DNA of 64,000 nt, taken from positions 2,198,001 to 2,262,000 of the forward strand of contig NZ_AP022810.1 of assembly GCF_009731355.2 (NCBI RefSeq), read 5' to 3'. The notes beneath the pieces are model-generated. The model was not told the origin of the DNA. It did not search any database and worked only from the letters and a program-made list of their open reading frames with translations. Within the stretch, counting starts at the first letter, position 1. Each line of letters starts with the position of its first letter. Source of the stretch: Desulfuromonas sp. AOP6 (lineage in GTDB: Bacteria > Desulfobacterota > Desulfuromonadia > Desulfuromonadales > SZUA-540). This document shows positions 47,953 through 54,599 of this stretch, one piece after another. The position numbers and the translations under genes were made by a program.

Positions 47953-49998
47953 ATGGAGAACTATCATCTTGCCAGAGCATTCCTGGATTCCATCACGGAA
48001 GAAAATTGCCGTGAAAAGGGCCGCGAAGTCAGCCAAAAAGCCCTGATCAACAAGCTCAACTCCATTAATTTTCATGGCGGTCATATTTTGATCACACTCT
48101 CGCACCGCCGCTATCCTCAGAAAATAACCCTGAAAGCGGCTCCCCAGCCCTGCTTCAATGCGCAGGCAGACTTTCTCTGGCTGGAACCTGAGGGTATCCG
48201 GGCCAAGCTCAAGGCCTACGAGTTCGATAACCTGATCATTGCCGACGGCCTCAAACTCATCGTGGTCAAGCCTGAGCTTGTCAATATGGCTTCACAAGGG
48301 ATGCGAATCTTGCTGCCAAAGATGGGCTGTGAAGTGCGTTCCAGAAAAACACAGCGTTTCCCCTGCCTACCCCTGCAGGTGGACGTCATACAGAACAGTG
48401 CCCATTTCAAAGGAGTCCTTCAGGACTTTACTGCCTGTTCTTTCGCCGTCAAATTGAGCACTGCCGCACCCCAGACCTTCAATTGGCTCAACCCCAATGA
48501 ACCCGTCATGGTTGTGCTGAGCAACGACACAACACCCCTTTTTGGCGGAGAGTGCCATATCGTCTATCAGAGCTGGGAACAGAAGACCCGTACCGTGGTT
48601 CTGCACATCCAGCGCCAGATGACTCCGCGCTTCAAAAGCAAGGAATTCAGAAGTCCGCGGCAGGAACTGGTTCCCTCCCCCAATATTCAGTTTCTGCACC
48701 CGCTGACAGAAAAGAAGATCGACCTTGGTGTCATCAACCTCTCCGGCACAGGGCTGGCCGTCGAAGAAGACCTGTCCCACTCCGTGCTGCTGCCGGGACT
48801 TATCATTCCCAAACTCCAGCTGATCTTTGCCACCAGCTTTACACTGACGTGCATGGCCCAGGTTATCTATCGGCGGCCTCGCAGTGATGACCCGGTAGAG
48901 ACCCGTGTAATTTGCGGGTTGGCCATACTCGACATGGAAATGGAGGAACATGTCAATCTGCTTTCACTCCTGCAGCAGGCCAATGACCCGCGTTCCTATC
49001 TCTGCAACCGGGTGGACCTGGATGCGCTGTGGCATTTCTTTTTTGAAACGGGCTTTATCTATCCGGAAAAGTATGCCCACATTCAGGCCAAAAAAGAAAA
49101 GTTCAAGAAGACCTACGAAAAACTCTACACCGAGAGCCCTCGGATTGCCCGTCACTTTATTTATCAGGACAAAGGCGTGATCATGGGGCACATGGCCATG
49201 CTGCGATTTTACAGCAAAACCTGGCTGATACACCACCACGCGGCAGACCGGACACTGTCACAGAAAGCGGGCCTGGTGGTCCTGGAACAGGCGGGCCAAT
49301 ACCTAAACGACTCCTACAACCTCCACTCATCTCATATGAATTTTGTCATGTGCTATTTCCGACCGGACAACAAGTTTCCTCGCCGTGTCTTTGGAGGTGT
49401 GGCGAAATACATCAGCAATCCCAAGGGATGCTCGATGGATGACTTTGCCTATTTCTATATTGAGCCTGAAAATGGATTGGAGCAGCGGGCCGACGAACCT
49501 TGGCATATGCAGCCTTTAACAGAGGAGGACCTCGTTGAGTTCGGCTACTTCTACGAGCACCTTTCCGGGGGGTTGATGATTCCGGCCATGGATCTGGAGC
49601 CGGGAATCGGAAGCGGGGATGAGCCCGATGAAGAATTTTTCAAGTTAGGGCTCAAAAGGCAGCGGTTTTGCTTCTCTTTAAAACAGGACGGTGAATTGCA
49701 GGCGGTGATCCTGATCAATCTCTCCGACGCGGGTCTCAACATGTCTGAGCTCACCAACTGCATCCAGGTTATCGTCCTTGACCAGGACAATCTCAACAGG
49801 GTCGATTTGATGGCCGCGCTGAAAAGACTGGGCAGGCAGTATTTCGAGGGGGATAAAATCCCGGCCATTTTATACCCGGTCAAATACGCCAAAGACCAGG
49901 AGATAAAATATGATAAGATTTACACAATGTGGATTTTGAATTGCCAGAATCTTGACCAATACTTCAAATTCTGCAACACTTTCCTGACACGCATATAA
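47953..49998 (+). CDS. PilZ-domain protein with acyltransferase-like C-terminal half
   Basis: A 681-residue cytoplasmic protein I cannot match to a named gene. Residues about 125-220 (RSRKTQRFPCLPLQVDV) and 230-335 (INLSGTGLAVEE) each look like a PilZ-type beta barrel; the first carries RxxxR and the second the N-x-S-x-x-G turn, so c-di-GMP binding could use one from each. Residues about 350-680 have an alternating alpha/beta pattern that recalls GNAT-like acyltransferases (DLDALWHFFFETGFIYPEKY, GHMAMLRFYSKTWLIHHHA, MNFVMCYFRPDN). AGAGAGG precedes the ATG. It stops nine bases before the HD-GYP gene, so the two form an operon. Confidence 0.7.
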   Translation: MENYHLARAFLDSITEENCREKGREVSQKALINKLNSINFHGGHILITLSHRRYPQKITLKAAPQPCFNAQADFLWLEPEGIRAKLKAYEFDNLIIADGLKLIVVKPELVNMASQGMRILLPKMGCEVRSRKTQRFPCLPLQVDVIQNSAHFKGVLQDFTACSFAVKLSTAAPQTFNWLNPNEPVMVVLSNDTTPLFGGECHIVYQSWEQKTRTVVLHIQRQMTPRFKSKEFRSPRQELVPSPNIQFLHPLTEKKIDLGVINLSGTGLAVEEDLSHSVLLPGLIIPKLQLIFATSFTLTCMAQVIYRRPRSDDPVETRVICGLAILDMEMEEHVNLLSLLQQANDPRSYLCNRVDLDALWHFFFETGFIYPEKYAHIQAKKEKFKKTYEKLYTESPRIARHFIYQDKGVIMGHMAMLRFYSKTWLIHHHAADRTLSQKAGLVVLEQAGQYLNDSYNLHSSHMNFVMCYFRPDNKFPRRVFGGVAKYISNPKGCSMDDFAYFYIEPENGLEQRADEPWHMQPLTEEDLVEFGYFYEHLSGGLMIPAMDLEPGIGSGDEPDEEFFKLGLKRQRFCFSLKQDGELQAVILINLSDAGLNMSELTNCIQVIVLDQDNLNRVDLMAALKRLGRQYFEGDKIPAILYPVKYAKDQEIKYDKIYTMWILNCQNLDQYFKFCNTFLTRI

Positions 49999-50007
49999 AA
50001 ACATCAT

Positions 50008-52347
50008 ATGACGAAACAGGGATGGGTGGCGCTATTGTCCAAAAACGACGAAAAAGTCCTCGCCGAAAAAAATCTTCCGCTGTATAACAGCCGAATCATT
50101 CACGCCTATCTCGCCCTTCTAAAAGACAAATACCCGCACATCGACGTCAATAAAATTCTGCGGCATGCCCACATGGATCCCTGCGAGGTCGCCGATCAGG
50201 GGCACTGGTTCAGTCAGGAACAGGTCGACCTGTTCTACGAAAAACTTGTTCAGCTCACTGGTGACGAATCGATCGCCCGGGAAGCGGGGCGGCACGCGGC
50301 TTCCCCCGAGGCGCTGGGCGCCATGCGTCAATATCTTCTTGGCCTCGTCGGCCCGGCCCGCGTTTTCAATCTGATCCAGAAAACTTCGGTTCAATTTACC
50401 CGTTCATCCGAGTACAGTTCCCGGGAGCTCGATTCCAACCGGGTCGAAATCACGGTCACCCCCCGCAGTGGCGTTCAGGAAAAAGAATTCCAGTGTGAAA
50501 ACCGGATGGGTTTTTTCGAAGCCATCATCATGATGTTCAATTTTCATCGCCCGGGCGTCACCCACCCTGAATGTCTTTTCAGGGGAGACCCCTGCTGCCG
50601 GTATGTTGTTTCCTGGGAAGACACCCTGGCCTCTCTCTGGGCCAAGATCAGGCTCAGGTCCATCCCCCTGTTCTTTCTCCTCGTTTTCGGGTCCCTGCTC
50701 TACGCCCCCGGGTTCACTCTAACCGTCATCCTCCCCGCTCTCACGATCATCCTCTTCGGCCTGACCGTCATCATGGATATTGCCGAAAAGAAGGAACTGC
50801 GTTCCAGCCTGAGCATCCTCATGGGCTCAACAGAAAAACTGGTGGACCAGATCAACATTAACCACGCCAATGCCAGCCTGACCAATGAAATCGGTCAGGC
50901 CCTCAGCCAGCAGACTGACATTGACAGCATTCTGGACAAGACAATCAAAATCCTGGAAAACTACCTGGATTACCAACGCGGCATGATTTTGCTGGCCAAT
51001 CCCGACCGCACCACATTGGAGTACAAGGGCGGATTCGGTTACACGGAAGAGCAGGAAGCTCTTTTAAAAAACACCAATTTCGATCTGACCCGGGCCGAAT
51101 CGGCCGGCATTTTTATCCGATCTTTCCGCGAAAAGCAGCCCTTTCTGATCAATGACCTTAAAGACATCGGCCAGCAACTCTCCGAGCGGAGCCTTAAATT
51201 CGCCAGTTTTCTTGGCGTGAAATCCTTCATTTGTTGCCCGATTATCAGCGAAGAAGAGACGGTAGGCATTCTGGCCGTGGATAATCTCAAGGCACCACGC
51301 CCCCTCGTACACAGTGACATGAGCCTTCTGATGGGCATCACCCCCTTCATCGGCATCAGCATGCATAACGTCAAGCTCATGAATGCCCGCGTAGAGCAGT
51401 TCAAATCGACCCTGCAGGTGTTGGCGGCCAGCATCGACGCGCGAGACCCCCTGACAGCGGGACATTCGGAAAAGGTCACCGAATACGCTCTGGGCATATG
51501 TCAGGAGATGGACCTGCCCCAGGACTTTACGGAAATGATCCGTGTGGCCGCTCTTTTACACGACTACGGTAAATTGGGTGTCCCCGATTCCATCCTCAAG
51601 AAGGAGGGCCGTCTGACCAGCGATGAATACGAAGCGGTCAAAACGCATTCCCTGAAGACGCGTACTATTCTCGAACAGATTAATTTTGAGGGAGTTATGG
51701 CTGAGGTACCCATCGTGGCCGGGGCCCATCATGAAAAATATGACGGCACCGGTTATCCCGAAGGGCTCATAGGAGAGCAAATTCCCCTGGGGGCCCGCAT
51801 CCTCGCTGTTGCCGACTTTTTCGAAGCGATCACTGCCAAAAGGCATTATCGCGAGCCAATGCCCCTAGATGTTGCCTTCGAACTGCTGCGAGAAGGGATT
51901 GGTCGTCATTTTGACGCCCGCGTCGTCATTGCCTTTATGGATTACTATACGCGGGCATACCTGGGGAAGCCAGCCACGGACCCCGGGCGCTCTTCTGTAA
52001 CCCGGAATGACCCGCGCGTCCCTATAAAGGTTCAGCTCTCTATAGAATTTTCTGGCGCTTCCTGGCCAGGCTATACGGTAGACATGGGTCCGGGAGGCCT
52101 CTATGCCACCAGTAACCAGACCGTCAGCTTGGGGCAACGACTGCATCTCAGCTTCGACCTCCCCGGCCCCACGACCACAACCATCCGGGTCCAGGGCAGG
52201 GTCGCCTGGGTCAACAACATGGACATCAGGCGAAAACCGTCCTATCCCTTGGGCTTCGGCATTGAATTCACGTTGATTTCAGACGCGGAAAAACGGGCCA
52301 TTGCCGATCACCTCAAAGCAGCCCCGTCCGCAGTGGCCCCTTATTGA
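50008..52347 (+). CDS. sensor-GAF-HD-GYP-PilZ c-di-GMP phosphodiesterase
   Basis: A 779-residue protein. Residues 25-205 form an N-terminal sensor-like domain ending in CLFRGDPCCRYVVSW, reminiscent of V4R-type ligand-binding domains. Two hydrophobic segments (219-232, 236-256) follow, then a GAF domain (about 290-460). An HD-GYP domain (470-655) has HDYGKLGVPD, AGAHHEKYDG and GYPEG intact, and should hydrolyse c-di-GMP. A C-terminal PilZ domain (665-775) has RxxxR at 666-670 and VDMGPGG. An HD-GYP enzyme carrying its own PilZ receptor is unusual. The ATG at 50008 lacks a clear ribosome-binding site; translation may be coupled to the gene before it, or start at a nearby GTG. Confidence 0.85.
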   Translation: MTKQGWVALLSKNDEKVLAEKNLPLYNSRIIHAYLALLKDKYPHIDVNKILRHAHMDPCEVADQGHWFSQEQVDLFYEKLVQLTGDESIAREAGRHAASPEALGAMRQYLLGLVGPARVFNLIQKTSVQFTRSSEYSSRELDSNRVEITVTPRSGVQEKEFQCENRMGFFEAIIMMFNFHRPGVTHPECLFRGDPCCRYVVSWEDTLASLWAKIRLRSIPLFFLLVFGSLLYAPGFTLTVILPALTIILFGLTVIMDIAEKKELRSSLSILMGSTEKLVDQININHANASLTNEIGQALSQQTDIDSILDKTIKILENYLDYQRGMILLANPDRTTLEYKGGFGYTEEQEALLKNTNFDLTRAESAGIFIRSFREKQPFLINDLKDIGQQLSERSLKFASFLGVKSFICCPIISEEETVGILAVDNLKAPRPLVHSDMSLLMGITPFIGISMHNVKLMNARVEQFKSTLQVLAASIDARDPLTAGHSEKVTEYALGICQEMDLPQDFTEMIRVAALLHDYGKLGVPDSILKKEGRLTSDEYEAVKTHSLKTRTILEQINFEGVMAEVPIVAGAHHEKYDGTGYPEGLIGEQIPLGARILAVADFFEAITAKRHYREPMPLDVAFELLREGIGRHFDARVVIAFMDYYTRAYLGKPATDPGRSSVTRNDPRVPIKVQLSIEFSGASWPGYTVDMGPGGLYATSNQTVSLGQRLHLSFDLPGPTTTTIRVQGRVAWVNNMDIRRKPSYPLGFGIEFTLISDAEKRAIADHLKAAPSAVAPY

Positions 52348-52353
52348 CCCCAT

Positions 52354-53163
52354 TTATTTCACGGGTTTCCTTCCACGACAAGCAATGAGCGGGGTATAAG
52401 TGAAGCGCCTCGGGTCTTTAAAACAGGCCATGAACTCCTCCCGAAACTCCTCGTATCCACCCGGATAATCCGAAAAAGGATATCCCGAGTTCTGGGCCGC
52501 GACTTCGACTTTCGTAGCCCAGTTAAAGGCATCGGTACTGCCGAGTTCACCATAGATCAGGTGGTGGGCCGACAGCTCAACCCGGATTTCCTCATAGCCC
52601 AGATCATAAAGGTAGGCATAGAGCTTTCGTCCCACGTAGGGATCGAAATCGGCGTTCTGCTCCAGCGTTTTCATCACACCACAGACCGTTTTTTCCAGGC
52701 GGACAGGGAGTCCGTAATGATTCAGGCAATTGTAGTCAAGATCTACCAGACACATGATGCCACCGGGGCTTAAAATATCCGTTAATCGCTGCACGATGGC
52801 AAAACTCTCCTGGCGGTGGTATTCCAGAAAAAACCGCGACCAGATAAAATCGAAGGGGCCCAGATCTTCAAGAGAGGCATAAACATTTCTACAGACAAAC
52901 GTGGCCCCCGAAGAAGATTGCGTCCTTTGGGCATGGGCGATGCGTTCCGCCGAGGCATCAACTCCCAGAGCACTCCCACCGGGTTGAACCAAGCCATGCA
53001 GAAACCCGGTAGTTTTGCCCGATCCGCAACCGATATCGGCGACTCGCATGCCAGGACGCAGCCCGGCCCAGAGAGCCTGTTCACTCAATCGCTCTCTATC
53101 CGTCTTCTGATCAAGCCGCAAAGCTTCCTTCTCGTTTTCCATAAGATATTTTGATTTGGACAA
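52354..53163 (-). CDS. class I SAM-dependent methyltransferase
   Basis: A 269-residue methyltransferase with SAM motif I (RVADIGCGSGKTTGFLHGL), motif II acidic residue in LGVDASAERI and a motif IV-like region (FDFIWSRFFLEY). The substrate is not apparent. It starts at TTG (53163), eight bases after AAGGAGG; an in-frame ATG seven codons later has no site of its own. It is divergent from the FadL-type porin gene and convergent with the HD-GYP gene, ending seven bases from it without a terminator I can see. Confidence 0.85.
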   Translation of the reverse strand: MSKSKYLMENEKEALRLDQKTDRERLSEQALWAGLRPGMRVADIGCGSGKTTGFLHGLVQPGGSALGVDASAERIAHAQRTQSSSGATFVCRNVYASLEDLGPFDFIWSRFFLEYHRQESFAIVQRLTDILSPGGIMCLVDLDYNCLNHYGLPVRLEKTVCGVMKTLEQNADFDPYVGRKLYAYLYDLGYEEIRVELSAHHLIYGELGSTDAFNWATKVEVAAQNSGYPFSDYPGGYEEFREEFMACFKDPRRFTYTPLIACRGRKPVK

Positions 53164-53321: not shown

Positions 53322-54599
53322 ATGCTGAGCCCTCGTGACCTTCGTCCTTTGTTCCTGGCCATCCTGACTGGAGCTCTTCTTTTTCCCCAGACTATTTTGG
53401 CTTCCGGGTTCGGCATATTCACCCAGGGAGCCAGCGCGCTCGGGCAGGCCAATGCCACCGTCGCACACGCTGACGGCCCTTCGGCCCTGTACTTTAACCC
53501 TGCCCTGCTCACAGATTTGCCGGGAACGGCGATGGAACTGGGGACAACCCTGATATACCCCCGACGAGACTTCACCAGTGACACAACCGGCCGGAAAGAT
53601 TCCACCGACAGCACCCTTTACGCTCCCAGTACATTTTACCTGACGCACACATTCAACGAAAAATTCAGCGCCGGCGTTGGCCTATTCAACCCTTTCGGAT
53701 TGGGAACGGAGTGGGATGACAATTGGGAAGGACGCTATCTCGCCACCCGTTCGGAAATTGTCACCTACGCCTTTAACCCTGCGGTGGGCTACCGGCCGAC
53801 CTCCTGGCTGAGTATTGGCGCCGGCCTGAATCTTCTTTACCTTGACGCTACCCTGGAGAAGCAGGTTAAACTCTCCTTTATCGGACTCGACGATGGACAG
53901 CAAAAATTCACTGGGGACGGAACAGGAGTGGGATTCAATCTGGGCATTCTTCTTAAACTGAACCCGAAAATACAGTTTGGGGCAGGTTATCGAAGTCCCA
54001 TAAAGGTTGACATCGATGGTCGCGTCAACTTCACTCTTCCTGACCCGGGTCTAGCGGTTATACTGCCTGATACGACAGCACAAACGGATATCACCTTGCC
54101 CCAGCAATTGGTCGCCGGACTGGCCTTTTTCCCCACCGACAATCTTACCCTTGAGACGGGCATCCGCTGGGAAGACTGGTCTTCTTACGATGAGTTGCAC
54201 ATCACCTTCGCCCAACCAGTGGGCGGCTCGACCTTCGCCATTTACCCGAAAAACTGGCAGGCCACCTGGGCCTGGAACCTGGGCGGGAAATATCGCCTGA
54301 ACGAAAGGATCTCCCTGCTAGCCGGATATCTGTACGGCGAAGACGCCATTGGCGATGCCACTTTTGAGCCGTCCGTCCCCGATGCAGACTCCCACCTGTT
54401 CTGCCTCGGCACGACCCTGCACTTCGACCGGCTGGCCATATCGCTCAGTTACGGCTACCAACACCTTGAAGGCAGGCGCAAGAACAACAGCTTTCTGCCC
54501 GATGTCGATCCAGCAGTGTCAGACCCGGCCGACTACGCCAGGGGAAGCTACGAGTCAGAGCTCCACCTGCTTGGATTAAGTGCTGGATACCATTTTTGA
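53322..54599 (+). CDS. OmpP1/FadL/TodX-family outer-membrane transporter
   Basis: A 425-residue outer-membrane beta-barrel with a signal peptide (LFLAILTGALLFPQTILA). The mature N-terminus SGFGIFTQGASALGQANATVAHADGPSALYFNPALL is the family's hatch region with its NPA motif. The barrel ends in AGYHF, with a terminal aromatic as required for outer-membrane insertion. Members import long-chain fatty acids or other hydrophobic compounds; the substrate here is unknown. GGGAGAT precedes the ATG. No fatty-acid degradation genes are adjacent. Confidence 0.9.
   Translation: MLSPRDLRPLFLAILTGALLFPQTILASGFGIFTQGASALGQANATVAHADGPSALYFNPALLTDLPGTAMELGTTLIYPRRDFTSDTTGRKDSTDSTLYAPSTFYLTHTFNEKFSAGVGLFNPFGLGTEWDDNWEGRYLATRSEIVTYAFNPAVGYRPTSWLSIGAGLNLLYLDATLEKQVKLSFIGLDDGQQKFTGDGTGVGFNLGILLKLNPKIQFGAGYRSPIKVDIDGRVNFTLPDPGLAVILPDTTAQTDITLPQQLVAGLAFFPTDNLTLETGIRWEDWSSYDELHITFAQPVGGSTFAIYPKNWQATWAWNLGGKYRLNERISLLAGYLYGEDAIGDATFEPSVPDADSHLFCLGTTLHFDRLAISLSYGYQHLEGRRKNNSFLPDVDPAVSDPADYARGSYESELHLLGLSAGYHF

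Follow-up and report, generated by a model that had tools for sequence, protein, structure and literature searches.

The 64,000-nt window of Desulfuromonas sp. AOP6 (NZ_AP022810.1), from whose first letter all coordinates are counted, contained a single uninterrupted open reading frame at 47953-49998 (+), as originally read. It encodes a 681-aa protein (P0001) that combines PilZ-like barrels with a C-terminal half of predicted acyltransferase fold, hereinafter referred to as PilZ-GNAT, and its gene was present as a single copy in the 3.27-Mb, one-contig genome. A gap of 9 bp separated it from a gene encoding an HD-GYP phosphodiesterase (50008-52347, +), in which Pfam recognized GAF, HD-GYP (HD_5, 147.9 bits), and PilZ domains. 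The catalytic signature HD...HHExxDGxGYP was present in this protein (HHEKYDGTGYP in the translation), confirming the c-di-GMP phosphodiesterase that had been proposed to lie directly downstream. Further, a gene for a class I SAM methyltransferase (Pfam Methyltransf_25/11) was located in convergent orientation at 52354-53163 (-), followed by a gene for an OmpP1/FadL/TodX-type outer-membrane transporter at 53322-54599 (+; Pfam Toluene_X, 223.8 bits). The central claim of the original prediction, PilZ domains fused to a GNAT-like C-terminal half and encoded beside an HD-GYP phosphodiesterase, was supported.

Residues 1 to about 230 of the HD-GYP protein comprised an N-terminal domain of about 200 aa without a library name, followed by hydrophobic segments; the domain gave only a weak match to Arabinose_bd (E = 0.0011). 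This N-terminal region was found in 62 of the 146 genomes sampled from the class, with up to five matches per genome, and 56 of these genomes also encoded PilZ-GNAT. The genome of Desulfuromonas sp. AOP6 contained 25 GGDEF matches and 14 PilZ matches above the cut-off, so c-di-GMP is very probably both made and sensed there. An Rfam scan of the window returned no riboswitch and no other Rfam family, and a c-di-GMP riboswitch upstream of the PilZ-GNAT gene was therefore rejected. Promoter-like sites in the scan equalled the shuffle mean, and the count of terminator-like sites (11, with a mean of 6.9 and sd of 2.6) was likewise uninformative.

The sole Pfam match of P0001 was PilZ at residues 236-340, whose 22.4 bits fell just short of the cut-off (22.5); among the family, PilZ matches (E ≤ 0.1) were obtained for 26 of 33 members, with a best E of 6.1e-11. 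P0001 had no matching PDB sequence, and searches of NCBIfam and PHROGs gave nothing convincing. The full-length AlphaFold model had a mean pLDDT of 48.5, and the strands at about residues 24-125 were better modelled (pLDDT about 70-87). A fold search with this model returned VCA0042, PP4397, and YcgR, proteins with a YcgR-N barrel and a PilZ domain, alongside GNATs. From these fold matches and a model that is only partial, we infer a layout of YcgR-N-like barrel, PilZ, PilZ, and C-terminal half. In this layout, the YcgR-N-like barrel, assigned from predicted strands and fold matches and devoid of a c-di-GMP motif, would span residues about 24-125 (48022-48327, +), the PilZ-like barrel 1, modelled with low confidence, residues about 127-225 (48331-48627, +), and PilZ barrel 2 residues about 226-344 (48628-48984, +). 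Two barrels had been expected; both PilZ-like barrels are present, but the total is probably three, with the extra motif-less barrel preceding RxxxR.

Motif conservation was counted over 53 aligned family members, with a mean column identity of 48%. The RxxxR noted earlier in the first PilZ-like barrel was located at residues 131-135, with R131 and R135 kept in all 53 members, and the NLSGTG of the second was located at residues 262-267, with the pattern [DN]xSxxG in 50 of 53. Since both are near-invariant at such a mean identity, they are not chance matches. The c-di-GMP motif had been described as split over the two barrels. Both of these halves are indeed conserved, but each barrel carried a counterpart of the other half in non-canonical form. 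In barrel 1, RxxxR was accompanied by a degenerate D-F-[STN]-A-x-S at residues 158-163 (DFSAxS in P0001), in which the final G was found in only one of 53 members. In barrel 2, the full [DN]xSxxG was accompanied by R233-x-x-R236 (53/53), in which the arginines are one residue closer than in RxxxR. In addition to the two arginines, G267 and G282 were invariant, and S264 was kept in 52 members.

The C-terminal half (residues 345-681) modelled alone reached a pLDDT of 61 and a pTM of 0.66. Both AlphaFold models were built from alignments of only five sequences, which accounts for their weakness. When the C-terminal half was compared with the PDB by Foldseek, the 18 best matches, with E from 4e-6 to 8e-4, were mostly tandem GNATs, namely Legionella VipF, a clostridial glucosamine N-acetyltransferase, and a clavulanate-pathway tandem GNAT; the other two kinds among these 18, 3frm (deposited as function unknown) and PamZ, are GNAT proteins as well, and the match at rank 19 was an uncharacterised protein. 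In the viral library, the named top matches were GNATs or N-myristoyltransferases. TM-scores of the models to GNATs were 0.2-0.44. At the sequence level, Pfam gave no GNAT match above the cut-off in the family, one member matching Acetyltransf_6 with an E of 0.0065. Comparisons of the C-terminal half with the Acetyltransf_6 and Acetyltransf_1 sets by hhalign, including one with a wider C-half alignment, were not above the reversed control, and PDB sequence searches with P0001, the C-terminal half, and the full profiles returned no GNAT match. Given the low TM-scores and the absence of a profile signal, the resemblance to GNATs is one of fold and of moderate strength, and the GNAT fold is supported by modest models.

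The GNAT-like character proposed for this half was matched by the fold search, but two GNAT units were predicted instead of one. Repeat 1 is predicted at residues about 345-501 (48985-49455, +) and contains the invariant H413, R418, W424, H428, H429, N473, S494, and D496. Repeat 2 is predicted at residues about 513-681 (49489-49995, +), with pLDDT mostly 75-89; in the C-half model, its elements at residues 517-680 followed the GNAT order (b-a-a-b-b-b-a-b-a-b). A CoA-loop-like QKAGLV was found after the HHHAA strand of repeat 1, with G440 at the CoA-loop position in 52 of 53 members. Of the Q/RxxGxG/A motif only a part was present here: position 437 varied, being R in 11/53, and the terminal G/A was missing. 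No CoA-loop motif was found in repeat 2. Among 59 aligned C-terminal halves, including one from a relative without PilZ domains, W424 and H428 were kept in all and N473 in 97%; R470, N473, K655, and Y657 were found in at least 95%, and this held for the most divergent sequences too. As judged from their conservation, these six residues have the look of an active site where the two GNAT repeats meet. By contrast, H413, D496, and P642, which were invariant elsewhere, were among the residues lost from the PilZ-less relative and from the most divergent members.

Relatives of PilZ-GNAT were identified in 59 of the 146 sampled genomes of the class, mostly with 35-50% identity over the full length, and the gene was present twice in most members of one genus. 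At the level of the phylum, a profile of the C-terminal half matched 44 of 395 genomes. The occurrence across the class and elsewhere in the phylum indicates a real and old family. A scan of viral contigs with the C-terminal half detected no relative. A contig labelled Nitrospira (L003) carried PilZ-GNAT, HD-GYP, methyltransferase, and FadL genes in the same order, with 52% identity, and is probably misbinned or the product of a recent transfer.

A search for region 350-681 in other contexts, which had been suggested earlier, was run and located it as a stand-alone protein (L075) and following more extended PilZ arrays (L076 and L077). In L075, the C-terminal half formed a 331-aa protein without any PilZ barrel. 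L076 and L077 each had two RxxxR motifs 222 residues apart, and L076 had a further N-terminal PilZ domain. No non-PilZ sensor type was seen ahead of region 345-681 among the relatives. One relative (L078:3175-6117) was extended at its N-terminus by about 290 residues, which gave a weak match to the nuclease-related NERD domain (E = 0.019). Near the PilZ-GNATs of L076 and L077, the most divergent of the relatives, and also near that of L038, there was a gene for a radical-SAM-like protein (about 540 aa), recognized by eye from its CxxxCxxC motif.

The neighbourhood was compared among 43 PilZ-GNAT loci. A member of the HD-GYP family was encoded nearby in 36 of them, and by gene-order count 28 loci had it as the next gene downstream in the same orientation. 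A methyltransferase of the 52354-53163 type was found nearby in 34 loci, and a FadL-type protein was linked in 15. Of the 146 class genomes, 59 encoded PilZ-GNAT, 56 the methyltransferase, 55 both (usually within 5 kb of each other), and 60 either; the Fisher p of this co-occurrence (3.6e-34) is overstated, because the test ignores the relatedness of genomes through shared ancestry. In L075, the PilZ-less GNAT gene was followed 3 bp later by a gene of the same methyltransferase family (36% identity, full length). A methyltransferase profile built without L075 gave 231 bits for the L075 copy and at least 280 bits for all other members, against 19 bits for an unrelated methyltransferase-like protein, indicating that the linked methyltransferases form one family. 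In the two-copy genus (L050 and L051), the second PilZ-GNAT copy lacked the methyltransferase and had response regulators and additional HD-GYP-cluster members as neighbours.

The original prediction had held that no named family has this layout, which proved wrong at the level of layout. PixB (MXAN_2604) of Myxococcus xanthus comprises two PilZ domains and a C-terminal GNAT acetyltransferase, and it binds c-di-GMP in vitro although the second motif is altered in both PilZ domains (PMC8316039). The motif arginines of PixB are needed for development, and its acetyltransferase part alone suffices in growing cells (PMC8316039). P0001 likewise has two PilZ domains and a C-terminal acetyltransferase-like part, a likeness of layout. 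The motif arginines are 102 residues apart in P0001 (R131 and R233), whereas they are 210 apart in PixB (R121 and R331), a spacing that suggests a barrel-PilZ-barrel-PilZ-GNAT order for PixB, closer to L076 and L077. The main text of the PixB report mentions no methyltransferase (PMC8316039), in contrast to the methyltransferase partner of the P0001 family. Another precedent is HfsK (CC3689) of Caulobacter crescentus, according to its abstract an N-acetyltransferase-family protein that binds c-di-GMP, requires a short C-terminal extension for this binding, and is dispersed and inactivated by c-di-GMP (PMC5362036). That abstract describes no PilZ domain, whereas P0001 has PilZ-like barrels.

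The sensor half of P0001 resembles YcgR, VCA0042, and PP4397, which apart from GNATs matched the fold of the full-length model best, in its succession of barrel, RxxxR linker, and PilZ barrel. Unlike P0001, these proteins have one PilZ domain only, canonical motifs, and no enzyme domain. The C-terminal half shares two GNAT repeats in one chain with its top fold matches, namely VipF, the glucosamine N-acetyltransferase, the clavulanate-pathway tandem GNAT, and mycothiol synthase. However, these tandem GNATs are without sensor domains and show about 7-12% identity to the C-terminal half where aligned, and P0001 largely lacks their CoA-loop motif. While the general layout is known from PixB, the pairing with a methyltransferase appears to be undescribed in the openly licensed literature.

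Taken as a c-di-GMP-switched enzyme, which is plausible, P0001 would act as an effector in which a YcgR-N-like and two PilZ-like barrels control a tandem-GNAT acyltransferase, in a pathway with the SAM methyltransferase and with a reset by the HD-GYP protein; we hold this reading with moderate confidence. In such a mechanism, the binding site for c-di-GMP would be one or both of the junctions between barrels, near R131/R135 and near R233/R236 with the [DN]LSGxG loop. Binding would reposition the barrels with respect to the two GNAT units and thereby switch access to the acyltransferase site, a step for which PixB is the precedent (PMC8316039). The active site would lie in repeat 1 (W424, H428, and N473), with K655 and Y657 contributed by repeat 2, and control would be by activation if P0001 behaves as PixB does. 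The HD-GYP phosphodiesterase from the same operon would lower c-di-GMP and so reset the switch. The co-inherited methyltransferase may act in the same pathway on a common substrate that is both acylated and methylated, a suggestion drawn from co-inheritance only.

A different reading of the sensor half, which we consider rather unlikely, is that the barrels no longer bind c-di-GMP and have a structural or protein-binding role like that of the YcgR-N barrel, leaving the GNAT pair constitutively active. Neither PilZ domain has both motif halves in canonical form, the GNAT part of L075 stands free of PilZ domains, and in PixB the acetyltransferase part without them is enough in growing cells (PMC8316039). 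On the other hand, PixB binds c-di-GMP despite its altered motifs, the usual neighbour of PilZ-GNAT is a c-di-GMP phosphodiesterase, and across relatives sharing only 33% identity the arginines and the second half of the motif vary hardly or not at all, as expected of a ligand site.

With regard to the C-terminal half, it is improbable that the tandem GNAT is catalytically dead and serves the PilZ sensor as an output domain that binds a ligand or a protein, for example to control the methyltransferase. The partial CoA-loop motif of repeat 1, its absence from repeat 2, and the lack of a Pfam or profile match to active GNATs would agree with such a role. However, in many true tandem GNATs the CoA loop is missing from one of the repeats, and the strong conservation of W424, H428, R470, N473, K655, and Y657, even in the PilZ-less member, suggests an active site. 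Still less probable, to the point of being very doubtful, is an unrelated alpha/beta fold that shallow models have misassigned. Low TM-scores, low model confidence, and a sequence-level GNAT signal not beyond the reversed control speak for it, but the full-length and C-half predictions, searched against two libraries, all returned GNATs, the order of elements in repeat 2 is that of GNATs, and one family member matches Acetyltransf_6. The conserved motifs, gene order, and co-occurrence stand as observed, and the c-di-GMP-switched acyltransferase remains our preferred reading.

FadL is a transporter for hydrophobic molecules, and the FadL-type neighbour, linked in only 15 of the 43 loci, is a hint of a lipid-like product. 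A broader and more tentative proposal, which we regard as possible but doubtful, is that Desulfuromonadia and related groups possess a widespread, undescribed c-di-GMP output pathway. In this pathway, a single lipid-like or surface molecule would be made or altered by the PilZ-controlled tandem GNAT together with its dedicated SAM methyltransferase. The HD-GYP protein would provide feedback, and in some lineages the product would have a FadL-type outer-membrane channel; the PilZ sensor would be a later addition to an older core formed by the two enzymes.

c-di-GMP is known mostly for the control of motility, polysaccharide synthesis, and transcription, and to our knowledge its direct control of an acyltransferase has been documented in only a handful of proteins, PixB and HfsK among them. 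The pairing of PilZ-GNAT with the methyltransferase points to an unstudied modification pathway, and a protein of the PixB kind that is conserved across a large bacterial group with a fixed methyltransferase partner would offer a concrete route to the substrate.
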